From: Minisyncoccota bacterium
GTDB lineage: Bacteria; Patescibacteriota; Minisyncoccia; Phycocordibacterales; UBA9973
Direction of reading: 5' to 3'
NCBI GenBank assembly: GCA_018062425.1
Contig: JAGOSH010000007.1
Location: 1 to 39,415 of the forward strand
DNA length: 39,415 bases
This document shows, one piece after another, positions 11,942 through 17,384 of this stretch. The translations under genes were made by a program, and so were the position numbers. How positions within the stretch are numbered: position 1 is the first letter of the stretch; every line of letters starts with the position of its first letter. The notes below the pieces were generated by a model that worked only from the letters and a program-made list of their open reading frames with translations, did no database searches and was not told where the DNA came from.

Positions 11942-13621
11942 ATGGAACAAAAAATAAAGAACTTAATAACAGAATCATTAAAAAGCCTAAACATAGAAGG
12001 GGCAGATTTTGTAGTTGAACACCCTGGTGATTTGTCGATGGGGGACTATTCTACTAATGTAGCTATGGTGCTCTCGAAAAAGCTCGGACAGAACCCAAAG
12101 GATATTGCAGAAAAAATAGTTGAAGAAATAAACAAAAACAAAAGTTCTGAAATAGAAAAAGTAGAAGTTGCCGGTCCGGGATTTATAAATTTCTATTTAT
12201 CACCGCAGTATTATCACACGGCGCTACAGAACCTTTTGAAAGCAGGAGAAAATTATGGAAAAGTTGAAATTCATAAAGGTAAAAAGATCCTTACAGAGCA
12301 TACGAGCATAAACTTGTTCAAGCCTTTTCACATCGGTCATTTGATGAACAATGCTATCGGAGAATCTATAACTCGCTTTGCACGATTCTCTGGTGCAGAA
12401 GTCACAGCTATTTCTTATCCTTCAGACGTCTCGCTCGGTATTGGTAAGGCTATTTTCATAATCCTTGCTGACGGTATAGACAAACTGAATTCTTTCGACA
12501 CTTTGTCTGAAAAGCTTACCTACATTGGTGAATGTTATGTGCGTGGAACCAGGAAAATGGAGGAAGACCCGAGCATCGAGCCCCGCATACGCGAAATAAC
12601 CAAAATGATTTACGATCACATCTCTGGTCCTGAATTGGATGCGTATGAAATAGGTAAAGAAATCAACTTGTCGTATTTCAAAACGATGTCTGACAAACTC
12701 GGCTCTAAATTTGCTGCATATATTTTTGAAAGTGAAGCAGGTGTAGAGGGCAAAAGACTGGTTACAGAAAATGTGGGGAAAGTTTTCGAAGAATCTGACG
12801 GGGCAATCATTTATAAAGGCGAGCAGGATGGATTGCATACCAGAGTTTTCGTAAACAAAGAAGGATATCCGACATACGAGGCCAAAGACGTGGGACTTAT
12901 GTTCCTCAAATTCTCGAGGTACAACCCTGACATATCTATCTTCATTACTGACCACGAGCAGTCAGAATATTTCAAAGTTGTGGTACATGCAGCGGGTAAA
13001 ATAAACAAAGTCTGGCAGGACAAAACAGTGCACCGTACTCATGGGCGTATGAGCTTCAAGGGACAAAAAATGTCGTCCCGTCTCGGTGGGGTGCCGATTG
13101 CTAGTACCTTGTTAGACGCAGTCAAAGAAGAAGTAACAGAAAAAGCCAAAGACATACCAGAAAAAACTAAAGAGATGATATCAGTAGCTGCTTTGAAGTT
13201 TGCCATTTTGAAAAGCATGGCTGGCAAGAATATAAATTTTGATCCAGAGACTTCGCTTTCTTTTGAAGGCGACTCCGGTCCGTATCTGCAATACTCTACT
13301 GTGCGTGCAGGTTCTGTTTTAGAAAAAGCAGGGGAGATCAAAGCCGAGTTTGATTTGAAATCAGAAATTACCGAAGTAGAAAAATATTTGGATAGATTCG
13401 AAGAAGTAGTCACGAAGTGCATCACCCTTTGGGAACCGCACCATATGGTGGACTATCTGCTCAATTTATCTCAAAGGTTTAATTCTTGGTACGGGCAGGT
13501 GCGCATTATCGACGAAGAGAACAAAGAAATGCAGTACAATCTGGCGATCGTCAAAGCTTTTACCTTGGTTATGAAAAACGGCCTTTACCTCCTAGGCATT
13601 GAAACTCCAGAGAAAATGTAG
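11942..13621 (+). CDS. argS: Arginyl-tRNA synthetase
   Basis: A 559-residue class I synthetase charging tRNA-Arg. The N-terminal Add1 domain (GDLSMGDYSTNVAM) is typical, the HIGH motif is FHIGH (H130-H133), and the KMSKS loop is degenerate as GQKMSSRLGG (about 376-380), normal for ArgRS. The anticodon-binding helical domain at the C-terminus ends MKNGLYLLGIETPEKM. A TATAAA four bases before the ATG is a poor promoter match; the inverted-repeat region lies just upstream. The T-box leader of ileS begins about 20 bases after the stop. Confidence 0.97.
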   Translation: MEQKIKNLITESLKSLNIEGADFVVEHPGDLSMGDYSTNVAMVLSKKLGQNPKDIAEKIVEEINKNKSSEIEKVEVAGPGFINFYLSPQYYHTALQNLLKAGENYGKVEIHKGKKILTEHTSINLFKPFHIGHLMNNAIGESITRFARFSGAEVTAISYPSDVSLGIGKAIFIILADGIDKLNSFDTLSEKLTYIGECYVRGTRKMEEDPSIEPRIREITKMIYDHISGPELDAYEIGKEINLSYFKTMSDKLGSKFAAYIFESEAGVEGKRLVTENVGKVFEESDGAIIYKGEQDGLHTRVFVNKEGYPTYEAKDVGLMFLKFSRYNPDISIFITDHEQSEYFKVVVHAAGKINKVWQDKTVHRTHGRMSFKGQKMSSRLGGVPIASTLLDAVKEEVTEKAKDIPEKTKEMISVAALKFAILKSMAGKNINFDPETSLSFEGDSGPYLQYSTVRAGSVLEKAGEIKAEFDLKSEITEVEKYLDRFEEVVTKCITLWEPHHMVDYLLNLSQRFNSWYGQVRIIDEENKEMQYNLAIVKAFTLVMKNGLYLLGIETPEKM

Positions 13622-13626
13622 TATTG

Positions 13627-13636
13627 TGCTTATAAG
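13627..13636 (+). promoter_or_regulatory. extended -10 promoter of the ileS T-box leader
   Basis: TGC TTATAA lies just before the T-box. Transcription would begin around 13640-13643, right at the predicted stem I, so the leader has no extra sequence before its specifier hairpin. Confidence 0.5.
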
Positions 13637-13640
13637 CGTT

Positions 13641-13803
13641 TGAGAGGCTATCAACCTCGAGGCTCTGGGAAGAAAGGAGAAATCCGATTAGACCCTAGCG
13701 GGTAAGCCCGACAAAGCTGTAAATCAAGAAGTAATTAAGGTGGTACCACGGCTCATGAGACCCGTCCTTAAACAGTAATTTTCTATTATTGTTTAAGGAC
13801 GGG
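13641..13803 (+). ncRNA. T-box riboswitch for tRNA-Ile, ultrashort stem I
   Basis: The leader has the T-box core TTAAGG-TGGTACC-ACGG at 13735-13751. Its two flanks pair with CCGTCCTTAA at 13762-13771 to form the antiterminator with a TGGT bulge; TGGT fits the ACCA end of tRNA-Ile (discriminator A). The same CCGTCCTTAA bases are also the 5' side of a strong terminator, so the two structures exclude each other. Near the 5' end a hairpin GAGG/CCTC at 13644-13658 has the loop CTATCAA with ATC at 13650-13652, an isoleucine codon, as specifier. This is like the short stem I of actinobacterial ileS T-boxes, but here the output is a transcription terminator. Directly precedes ileS. Confidence 0.9.
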
Positions 13804-13815
13804 TTTTTATTTTTT
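13761..13815 (+). terminator. T-box-controlled terminator before ileS
   Basis: A 19-base-pair stem (13761-13779 with 13785-13803, one G-U pair) with a five-base loop, followed by TTTTTATTTTTT. Formed when the antiterminator is not stabilised by uncharged tRNA-Ile. Confidence 0.92.
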
Positions 13816-13835
13816 AAAACTAACAAAATATTTAT

Positions 13836-16800
13836 ATGGAAGAAAAAAATAACAAAAGTGAGGCAGCTCTAAGAGAAGAAAAAGTTCTCGAATTTTGGCT
13901 AGAGAATAAAGTTTTCGAAAAGTCGATGTCTGCTGACAGTAGTCATCCGAAAGGTGAGTTCGTTTTCTATGAAGGTCCACCTACTGCGAATGCTAAACCA
14001 GCACTCCATCACCTGGAGGCTCGCGCTTTCAAGGATGTTATACCGAGATACAAAACTATGCAGGGATTCCACGTGCGTCGTAAAGGTGGGTGGGACACAC
14101 ACGGCCTTCCTGTGGAACTCCAAGTTGAAAAGAAGCTGGGACTTAATTCCAAAAAAGCTATCGAAGAATACGGTATTGCCAAGTTCAACAGTGAATGTAG
14201 AGAAAACGTATGGGAGCATATAGGAGAGTGGACCAAGTTTACGGAGCGTATCGGCTACTGGGTGGATAAAGAAAATCCATATATTACTTATGACAACAGT
14301 TACATAGAATCTTTGTGGAATGTGGTAAAGACCGTAGATGACAAAAAGCTTTTGTACAAAGATTACAAAGTCTTGCCTTGGTGTCCGCGCTGTGGAACAG
14401 CGCTGTCTTCGCACGAACTCGCACAGGGGTATGAAGATGTAAAAGATTTATCTGTGTATGTGAAGTTCAAAGTTAAAGGACAAGAAAATACTTATATCCT
14501 TGCGTGGACTACTACGCCGTGGACATTGCCTGGCAACGTTGCTTTGGCTGTAGGTAAAGATATTGAATATGTGAAAGTAAAAGTTGATTACGGAAATGAT
14601 ATTGTTGAAACTGGGACAGTAGAAAATGGGGTAAATAAAAATCAGACATTAATAAAATCAGGAACATATATATTAGCAAAAGCACGAATCGGGTTAATCG
14701 TAGGTAAGTATGAAAATATTGGGGAAATGAAAGGTTCTGACCTGGTTGACCTTGAATACGAACCACTTTTCCCATACATGGCCGACACTATTTCCGATAC
14801 TGAAAAAGAAAAGTTAGAAAATAAAGCATATAGAGTATACGCAGCGGACTTTGTAACCACCGAAGACGGTACTGGGGTGGTGCATACGGCAGTCATGTAT
14901 GGACAGGACGACTTCGTGCTTGGAACGCAGGTTGGACTTCCAAAGCATCACCTAGTAAACCTCGAAGGTAAGTTTGTAAAAGGCACGGGTTTCCTCGAAG
15001 GAAGATTTGTGAAAGAAAAAGACGAGAATGGTAAACCTACTTTGGCGGTAGATATAATAAATTACCTGACTGAGAAAAATCTTTTCTTTAAGAAAGAAAA
15101 TTACGAGCACTCATATCCGCATTGTTGGCGTTGTAAAACTGCTCTTATCTATTATGCACGAGACTCTTGGTACATCCGCATGTCAGACCCAAAAGTGAAA
15201 GAAGAAATGATAAGTCAAAACAAGGAAATAAATTGGGAGCCTTCACACATCCGTGATGGACGCTTTGGAGAATGGTTGCGAGAAATAAAAGACTGGGCCG
15301 TATCTAGAGAAAGGTATTGGGGTACACCGCTTCCTGTCTGGCTTGCAAGTGACGGAGAGAAATTTGTTGTTGATTCCCTTGATACTTTGAAGAAATATTC
15401 CAAAAAGTCCGGTAACAAATATTTCGTAATGCGCCACGGACAGACAGACAACAATGTGAAAAATCTAGTCAGCACTATGAAAAACAGTGGTAGCCACCTG
15501 ACAGAGGAAGGGAAATCAAAAACCAAAGAAAGCGTAGAATCTTTGAAAAACAAAGGTATAAATCTGATCATTACATCACCGTTCAATAGAACCCGAGAAA
15601 CCACAGCTATCGTCAAAGAAGTACTTGGATTAAAAGACGACCAAATAGTAGAAGACGAGAGGCTTGGCGAGATGCAGGTACTGTCCTACGAAGGCCGGAC
15701 CTGGGATGAATATCACAATGAGAATCAGAAAACGACAGACAATTTCGACAAAGCTCACGCAGGAGATGAGTCATACAAAGATATCAAAAGACGAGTAATG
15801 GAATTTGTTTTTGAAACAGAGGCAAAGTATAAAGATAAAAATGTATTGATCGTCACTCACGGCGGACCAGCTTGGCTTCTGGCTTCTGGGGCGCTCATGC
15901 TTGATGTAGAAAAAACTTTGGACATGATCAGCGAAAAAGACGGCTATCATTATTTGAGTAATTCCGAAGTTCAAGAACTTGATTTTTTTGCATTTCCACA
16001 CAACGTAAACTATGAGCTAGATTTGCATCGACCATACATAGATGAGGTTGTTCTAGAAAAAGAGGGCAAAGAATTTGTTCGTACAAAGGAAGTCATGGAC
16101 TGCTGGTTTGATTCTGGGGCGATGCCTTTCGCTCAAGATCACTATCCGTTCGAGAATAAAGAATTTGTGGATGGGCCAGGGTATCCGGCGGACTACATTT
16201 CTGAAGCGATAGATCAGACTCGTGGATGGTTTTATACCTTGCATGCCGTGGGTATACTTATGGGTCGTGGTAAAGCATATAAGAATGTTATTTGTCTCGG
16301 GCATTTACTGGATGAAAAAGGTAAAAAAATGTCAAAATCTATAGGCAACATTGTTGATCCTTGGTTTATGATGGATAAATACGGAGTAGATACACTTAGG
16401 CTTTGGATGTATTCGGTTAATCAGCCCGGAGAAGCGAAAAACTTTGATGAGAAAACTGTAAACATTCTGAACCAGCAAGTCTTTGGACTTCTATACAATG
16501 TTTTAGCTTTCTATGAACTATATAGAGATCAAAAACTTGAAGGTAGCGAAGAAGTAAAATCAGAAAACATACTAGACGTGTGGATACTAGCTAAGTTGGC
16601 AGAGTTAAATAATCTTGCAGTAAGCAACTTAGATAACTACAAAGTGCTTGAGCCTACTCGGGCAATGCGAGAATTCATCGGGGATTTGTCTACCTGGTAC
16701 TTGCGTCGTTCTCGAGAAAGAATCAAAGAAGGGGAAGTAGAAGCAAAGAAGACTCTTTATTTTGTTTTGAAAAACTTTGTTAAGATCATGGCACCGTTTG

Positions 16801-17384
16801 CTCCTTTTTCAGCAGAAGATATTTGGTTGAAATTACGAAATGAAACAGATGCGGAATCTGTGCACCTAGCTTCGTGGCCAGAATTAAAGAAGCTAGAAAA
16901 CAAAGAAGTTCTAGACAGTATGCAAAGTGTTCGTGATTACGTAGCTGTTGGACATATGGGGCGCCAGAAATTAAAGTTTCCTGTACGGCAACCACTTGCA
17001 AGTTTCTTTGTTCCAATAATCCCATTTCAAGATTATATAGAGATACTAAAAGATGAGTTAAATGTAAAAGAAATAAAAACATCAGTAAAACAAGGAGAAA
17101 TAGATATATACTTTGATGAAACGATAACCCCAGAACTCAAACAAGAAGGGGACTACCGCGAGCTGGTGCGGGGAATTCAAGATATGAGAAAGGCTATGGG
17201 GCTAGTGCCTAGCGATGTTGTGCAGTTACTAGTCTTTACGAATGTCGCTGGTGAAGAGTTGATAAATAAATTCAAAACAGAATTGCTAAAAGTTGTGGGT
17301 GCAAGTTCTGTAGAATTCGCAGACAATGATGGCACCGAGATAAAGGTGGACGAATTAGTGTTTAAGGTTAAATTGAACAAATAG
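13836..17384 (+). CDS. ileS: Isoleucyl-tRNA synthetase with inserted histidine-phosphatase domain
   Basis: An 1182-residue protein, longer than usual because of one insertion. IleRS parts: the HIGH equivalent ALHHLEAR (H58, H59), WDTHGLPVE, the editing-domain segments AWTTTPWTLPGN and GTGVVHTAVMYGQDDF, RYWGTPLPVW, then WFDSGAMPFAQ, KKMSKSIGN (about 831-835) and a C-terminal anticodon-binding region. The catalytic core is of the eukaryal-like type. Between VWLASDGEKFVV (about 510) and DLHRPYIDE (about 727) lies a complete histidine-phosphatase fold: FVMRHGQTDNN (RHG at 533-535), SPFNRTRETT, LGEMQVLSYEG and VLIVTHGGPAW (H675), the full catalytic set. It is preceded by the T-box, so expression responds to uncharged tRNA-Ile. 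The insert's substrate is unknown. Confidence 0.97.
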   Translation: MEEKNNKSEAALREEKVLEFWLENKVFEKSMSADSSHPKGEFVFYEGPPTANAKPALHHLEARAFKDVIPRYKTMQGFHVRRKGGWDTHGLPVELQVEKKLGLNSKKAIEEYGIAKFNSECRENVWEHIGEWTKFTERIGYWVDKENPYITYDNSYIESLWNVVKTVDDKKLLYKDYKVLPWCPRCGTALSSHELAQGYEDVKDLSVYVKFKVKGQENTYILAWTTTPWTLPGNVALAVGKDIEYVKVKVDYGNDIVETGTVENGVNKNQTLIKSGTYILAKARIGLIVGKYENIGEMKGSDLVDLEYEPLFPYMADTISDTEKEKLENKAYRVYAADFVTTEDGTGVVHTAVMYGQDDFVLGTQVGLPKHHLVNLEGKFVKGTGFLEGRFVKEKDENGKPTLAVDIINYLTEKNLFFKKENYEHSYPHCWRCKTALIYYARDSWYIRMSDPKVKEEMISQNKEINWEPSHIRDGRFGEWLREIKDWAVSRERYWGTPLPVWLASDGEKFVVDSLDTLKKYSKKSGNKYFVMRHGQTDNNVKNLVSTMKNSGSHLTEEGKSKTKESVESLKNKGINLIITSPFNRTRETTAIVKEVLGLKDDQIVEDERLGEMQVLSYEGRTWDEYHNENQKTTDNFDKAHAGDESYKDIKRRVMEFVFETEAKYKDKNVLIVTHGGPAWLLASGALMLDVEKTLDMISEKDGYHYLSNSEVQELDFFAFPHNVNYELDLHRPYIDEVVLEKEGKEFVRTKEVMDCWFDSGAMPFAQDHYPFENKEFVDGPGYPADYISEAIDQTRGWFYTLHAVGILMGRGKAYKNVICLGHLLDEKGKKMSKSIGNIVDPWFMMDKYGVDTLRLWMYSVNQPGEAKNFDEKTVNILNQQVFGLLYNVLAFYELYRDQKLEGSEEVKSENILDVWILAKLAELNNLAVSNLDNYKVLEPTRAMREFIGDLSTWYLRRSRERIKEGEVEAKKTLYFVLKNFVKIMAPFAPFSAEDIWLKLRNETDAESVHLASWPELKKLENKEVLDSMQSVRDYVAVGHMGRQKLKFPVRQPLASFFVPIIPFQDYIEILKDELNVKEIKTSVKQGEIDIYFDETITPELKQEGDYRELVRGIQDMRKAMGLVPSDVVQLLVFTNVAGEELINKFKTELLKVVGASSVEFADNDGTEIKVDELVFKVKLNK

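Follow-up and report, generated by a model that had tools for sequence, protein, structure and literature searches.

A candidate ultrashort T-box for transcription attenuation of ileS in a Patescibacteria genome, and its relatives across the phylum

The leader between argS and ileS

The window analysed here, a stretch of 39,415 nucleotides from contig JAGOSH010000007.1 of a tiny Patescibacteria genome, carries on its forward strand the gene argS (11942..13621) followed by ileS (13836..17384), the latter encoding an isoleucyl-tRNA synthetase (IleRS) of 1182 amino acids. The intergenic region between them, on the same strand, contains a T-box leader (13634-13815). The 3' end of argS overlaps a σ70-like promoter region (13599..13627) composed of a -35-like TTGAAA (13599-13604), a spacer of 17 bp and the -10 hexamer TATTGT (13622-13627). 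With one match found against 0.5 expected this promoter is weak when taken alone; relatives have TATACT-like boxes similarly placed. Judged by the promoter, transcription is predicted to begin at about 13634, the base of stem I.

Read from this point, the leader opens with the 5' strand of the stem I base helix, AAGC, and a kink-turn-like GUUUGA (13634..13643), continues as the ultrashort hairpin GAGG-CUAUCAA-CCUC (13644..13658), in which the strands GAGG (13644-13647) and CCTC (13655-13658) enclose a loop of 7 nt, CTATCAA (13648-13654), and returns through GAG to the base-helix strand GCU (13659..13664). The loop displays the triplet AUC (13650..13652), complementary to the anticodon GAU of the tRNA-Ile of this genome. 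The putative kink-turn is irregular: relatives conserve GUUGA/GGA, and this copy reads GUUUGA/GAG with one extra G. Stem II (13665..13698), as placed by the Rfam alignment, includes an S-turn-like element, GAA/AUUA, which is a variant of the consensus GAA/AGUA. It is followed by the stem IIA hairpin CGGG-UAAG-CCCG (13699..13710), the pairs of which covary among relatives, while no IIB pseudoknot is visible in the window copy. The linker of the window copy (13711..13734), delimited by comparison with relatives, likewise lacks a stem III hairpin, although several relatives have one. Since folding of the 5' half as a single sequence is no better than that of shuffles (z 0.63), the case for stems I and II rests on comparison.

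The 3' half begins with the antiterminator (13735..13771), built of the helices UUAAGG/CCUUAA and ACGG/CCGU, in which all 10 pairs are standard. Its 5' part is the T-box core TTAAGG-TGGTACC-ACGG (13735-13751), occurring once in the window as against 0.0 times per shuffle, and the 3' partner is CCGT-CCTTAA (13762-13771). Within the bulge UGGUACC (13741..13747) the first four nucleotides, UGGU (13741-13744), complement the 3' end ACCA of tRNA-Ile. An intrinsic terminator with its U-tract (13759..13815) follows, comprising a stem of 20 counted pairs (13759-13805), then UUUUUAUUUUUU on the + strand, with the U-tract at 13804-13815, approximately 170 nt from the predicted start. The 5' arm of the terminator includes the antiterminator 3' strand and, because the stretch 13762-13771 is thus common to both, the two structures are mutually exclusive; folded alone, the terminator reaches -31.5 kcal/mol and the antiterminator -5.0 kcal/mol.

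Identification as a T-box

The Rfam T-box model RF00230 aligns over its full length to the leader with 29.6 bits and an E-value of 5.5e-5 (in a 341-nt stretch), a score that does not reach the gathering score of 93, so that a default Rfam scan finds nothing at this locus. That cut-off is tuned to T-boxes with a long stem I and is not biologically defining. Among 60 relatives RF00230 matches 25, none at the gathering score. Sequence features by which a T-box is recognised are present, namely a UGGN bulge complementary to NCCA in a two-helix antiterminator, a cognate specifier and an exclusive terminator, and the tRNA-Ile(GAU) of the genome ends in ...CUC-A-CC, its discriminator A73 matching UGGU. 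Two further RF00230 T-box matches in the same genome lie in the leaders of aspS (G000:C6:8369-8517, L002), an ultrashort T-box with GAC in the loop, and of thrS, with ACC in the loop; in the latter the bulge reads UGGA, matched by U73 of tRNA-Thr.

A preliminary description of this DNA, made from the sequence alone, had proposed a T-box in a candidate-phylum genome, with the core and competing terminator just described, a tiny stem I (GAGG/CCTC) displaying ATC in its terminal loop, an isoleucine specifier and termination as the output. These proposals hold: covariance searches match the leader, both with RF00230, below its gathering score, and with the genus-built model introduced below; ileS relatives display AUC in the loop (44 of 48), as an isoleucine specifier requires; the closest named relatives of the IleRS are Patescibacteria MAGs; and the remaining points are borne out by the comparisons that follow.

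Relatives across the phylum and covariation

We constructed a covariance model, R1, on six ileS leaders from the genus; it detects relatives in 125 of the 379 genomes sampled across the phylum Patescibacteria, with E-values of 1e-16 to 1e-8 on relatives outside its building set. One hundred R1 matches were aligned. All 26 pairs show compensatory changes involving both sides. Of the alignment cells 93% are paired, compared with 66% after shuffling, and covariation is scored at 0.70, as against 0.21 for shuffles and no more than 0.12 for slid versions. The alignment, being fitted to the model, leans towards it; even so, effect sizes of this order leave little doubt about the helices, stem I included. 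The stem I hairpin helix is paired in 92% of cases, with compensatory changes at 4 of its 4 pairs, the base helix in 81%, again with compensatory changes, stem II in 97%, and the antiterminator helices, also with compensatory changes, in 94-97%.

These data bear on the question of whether the window copy is a relic, still recognisable as a T-box yet no longer responsive to tRNA, which would leave ileS behind a constitutive or leaky terminator. Its irregular kink-turn, its S-turn variant and the lack of a clear IIB and stem III could be taken as signs of decay, as could the patchy presence of the T-box across the genomes of the genus. Nevertheless no damage is apparent in the specifier, in UGGU, in either antiterminator helix or in the exclusive terminator, the stem I pairs are maintained by compensatory change phylum-wide, and the genome retains the two additional T-boxes with cognate specifiers, such that we regard decay as very improbable.

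Four ileS T-boxes (L017, L126, L146 and L169) have an additional hairpin, inserted after stem I but ahead of the base helix's 3' strand. Their layout resembles that of the thrS leaders of the genus and perhaps represents an intermediate form. In those thrS leaders, including that of the window genome (G000:C9:51323-51433), an ultrashort stem I (ACC) and a second hairpin lie together inside an outer helix; the bulge is UGGA, and no stem II or IIA/B is recognisable. A second covariance model, R2, made from five thrS leaders of the genus, has seven matches in the 379 phylum genomes, among them the window genome's own copy, and the N-termini encoded downstream of these matches all read as ThrRS. 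Across 12 sequences 96% of the outer helix is paired, and compensatory changes occur in it. The variant (L003 and L361, both the window genome's copy, and L021, L025-L027, L029, L360 and L362-L366) occurs upstream of thrS in several of the phylum's families, and as judged from sequence it would be a T-box with a truncated stem I that dispenses with stem II, an element considered essential in class III.

Downstream genes and specifiers

The genes downstream of the 100 R1 matches, grouped by BLAST and named through NCBIfam matches of representatives, comprise 48 ileS, 25 aspS and 15 valS, the remainder being single or paired instances of tyrS, serS, proS, alaS, argG and others. With stem I as placed by the model, the loop triplet is cognate to the gene that follows in 75 of 93 labelled cases, as compared with 29.7 on average and never more than 43 in 5000 rounds of permuting the gene labels; an initial test using a naive hairpin finder had given 64 of 93. 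The 18 non-cognate cases are mostly errors of register, the cognate triplet still being recognisable. At ileS the specifier is AUC in 44 of 48 leaders, at valS GUC in 14 of 15, and at aspS either AAC (12 of 25) or GAC (8 of 25). Because R1 was trained on ileS leaders only, neither the GUC at valS nor the GAC and AAC at aspS can have been built in.

The AAC triplets are intelligible in the light of the enzyme concerned. One representative of the aspS group matches the non-discriminating type in NCBIfam. Non-discriminating AspRS also charges tRNA-Asn, which is why AAC upstream of such a gene makes sense, and the specifiers suggest that some of the aspS T-boxes sense tRNA-Asn and others tRNA-Asp, both on behalf of an apparently non-discriminating AspRS.

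For six T-boxes (L013, L151, L171, L177, L202 and L204) the gene assignment is ambiguous, the downstream genes including argG, one for a HisN-like phosphatase, whose leader displays AUC, an aroE-like gene and unidentified ones. At L228 (1501-1575) a tRNA-Ile with the anticodon TAT is present alongside tRNA-Ile(GAT) in the same genome; bacterial AUA codons are usually decoded by a lysidine-modified CAT tRNA.

Transcriptional versus translational output

A terminator hairpin with a U-tract lies 3' of the antiterminator in 83 of the 100 relatives, compared with 7 of 100 in shuffles, and in 80 of those 83 its 5' arm overlaps the antiterminator. The same combination of ultrashort T-box and terminator also serves valS, aspS, tyrS, serS, proS and alaS in the phylum. 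The preliminary description had set termination at this ileS against the translational control usual for actinobacterial ileS T-boxes with so short a stem I: the combination is real, but among the phylum relatives found it is the dominant form and not a single exception.

The principal competing view is that the leader acts on translation, as do the ultrashort T-boxes of Actinobacteria, the hairpin serving mainly to sequester the ribosome-binding site and the run of U being incidental. In its favour, R1 also detects ileS-type ultrashort T-boxes in a search of 198 Actinomycetota genomes (47-70 bits), and none of the 12 of these that were inspected, in all of which the downstream N-terminus reads as IleRS by eye, has a terminator. 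Moreover, two patescibacterial ileS T-boxes (L159 1501-1668 and L180) are without a terminator, and in L159 a CCTCT...AGAGG immediately upstream of the ATG could sequester a Shine-Dalgarno sequence; L159 thus looks translational, and both outputs would therefore occur in the phylum. The window copy, however, has a 20-pair hairpin followed by TTTTTATTTTTT that ends about 20 nt upstream of the ileS ATG, no Shine-Dalgarno sequence is seen upstream of that ATG to be sequestered, and most relatives possess a terminator. A translational output is accordingly improbable here, if marginally less so than decay.

We therefore favour, with a probability of roughly 0.92, the reading in which the leader is an ultrashort (class III) T-box that senses tRNA-Ile and controls ileS by transcription attenuation. 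Sequence and comparison establish the helices, the cognate specifier, the discriminator match and the exclusive terminator; the start site, the binding of tRNA, the response to charging and the direction of switching are inferred. Under such control transcription from the promoter overlapping the end of argS would start at stem I, and uncharged tRNA-Ile would bridge the loop with AUC and the bulge with UGGU, as in other T-boxes. Pairing of its ACCA end with UGGU would hold the antiterminator, allowing polymerase to read into ileS; when tRNA-Ile is charged or missing, the terminator, by far the more stable structure, would form and transcription would presumably stop.

Comparison with known T-box classes

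In the four-class scheme a short stem I with an apical specifier defines class III, and classes III and IV regulate mostly translation (PMC10482949), whilst transcriptional T-boxes generally require a long stem I (PMC7583486). The present leaders share with class III the short stem I, the specifier in a short apical loop (5-7 nt in class III, 7 nt in the window copy), the absence of the distal elbow-binding motif in 98 of 100 relatives and, in the window copy, a stem II with an S-turn. Close counterparts are the ileS T-boxes of Nocardia farcinica and Mycobacterium tuberculosis (PMC10482949, PMC10651847), which have a short stem I with a kink-turn, an apical AUC, stem II with an S-turn and stem IIA, and actinobacterial class III ileS T-boxes are found by the very model that defines the patescibacterial set. 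The published examples control translation initiation, whereas the window leader ends in an intrinsic terminator; a further difference is that the T-boxes of the patescibacterial set also serve Val, Asp/Asn and other specificities. With class I T-boxes (Bacillus subtilis tyrS type, RF00230) the leader shares the UGGN bulge, the antiterminator/terminator switch, the stem II S-turn and the specifier logic; it differs in having neither a long stem I nor the elbow-binding distal motif and in placing the specifier in a terminal and not an internal loop. The class II (translational) model of TBDB (PMC7778990) covers T-boxes with a truncated stem I and was built and searched on Actinobacteria. On sequence comparison, then, the patescibacterial and actinobacterial forms appear to be structurally of one kind with different expression platforms, and the leader is best described as a known ultrashort architecture joined to transcription attenuation.

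A search by pattern for the distal stem I motif finds it in 2 of 100 patescibacterial matches, in 22 of 30 from Bacillota, in 10 of 21 from Chloroflexota and in none of the 12 ultrashort T-boxes from Actinomycetota. Matches to R1 in Bacillota are long-stem-I T-boxes or not T-boxes at all, and those in Chloroflexota are mostly long-stem-I T-boxes. Such matches favour the view that the window leader, too, is an ordinary long-stem-I T-box of which the 3' part alone has been recognised, but what precedes its stem I is the coding sequence of argS, ending in a promoter. In addition, the distal motif is all but missing from the patescibacterial matches, and the base helix closing round the short hairpin covaries. 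This is the least probable of the explanations considered.

Two ileS-type leaders from Chloroflexota (L314 and L320) look ultrashort, with AUC in the loop and terminators, and are the only such cases seen outside Patescibacteria; the combination therefore does not seem exclusive to this phylum. Three candidates from Actinomycetota (L272, L274 and L276) were rejected as ultrashort T-boxes with terminators, two having an upstream long-stem-I motif by pattern and the third likewise by eye.

Implications for attenuation

A class III sensor joined to a transcription terminator would constitute a new combination within a known riboswitch family. Reviews explain the long stem I of attenuating T-boxes by kinetics, rapid capture of the tRNA being needed before polymerase passes the terminator, and take the ultrashort form to signal translational control (PMC7583486 section 6.2; PMC10482949). 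Because this rationale ties attenuation to a long stem I, it would predict a weak response for leaders such as the present one, and a phylum with terminators on most of the ultrashort T-boxes found makes the kinetic explanation directly testable. A literature search that excluded the key 2015 and 2018 actinobacterial papers and the TBDB supplement returned no paper on T-boxes in Patescibacteria, and the ultrashort patescibacterial set is invisible at the standard Rfam cut-off. The ultrashort architecture has been described mainly for ileS. We consider it probable that Patescibacteria possess phylum-wide ultrashort T-boxes used chiefly for attenuation, with at least eight specificities (Ile, Val, Asp, Asn, Tyr, Ser, Pro and Ala) and a nested thrS form lacking stem II, in which event the long-stem-I rule for attenuation would not be general. 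The T-boxes would also indicate sensing of amino-acid starvation in bacteria without most amino-acid synthesis.

The inserted domain of IleRS

The preliminary description had regarded the association of the T-box with a fused IleRS as unusual. The fusion itself is real, but its coupling to the T-box is not. A His_Phos_1 insert is found in 5 of 6 related ileS products scanned; it is missing from that of G017, a genome in which the T-box is present, and apparently from L033. Conversely, L030 has the insert and no T-box core motif within 700 nt upstream of its ileS. Since each of G017 and L030 displays one without the other, a link was rejected and the two traits are taken to be independent. In the window IleRS the inserted histidine-phosphatase domain occupies residues 530-695, within the catalytic domain; it has an RHG and a later THGG motif and looks active from its sequence.
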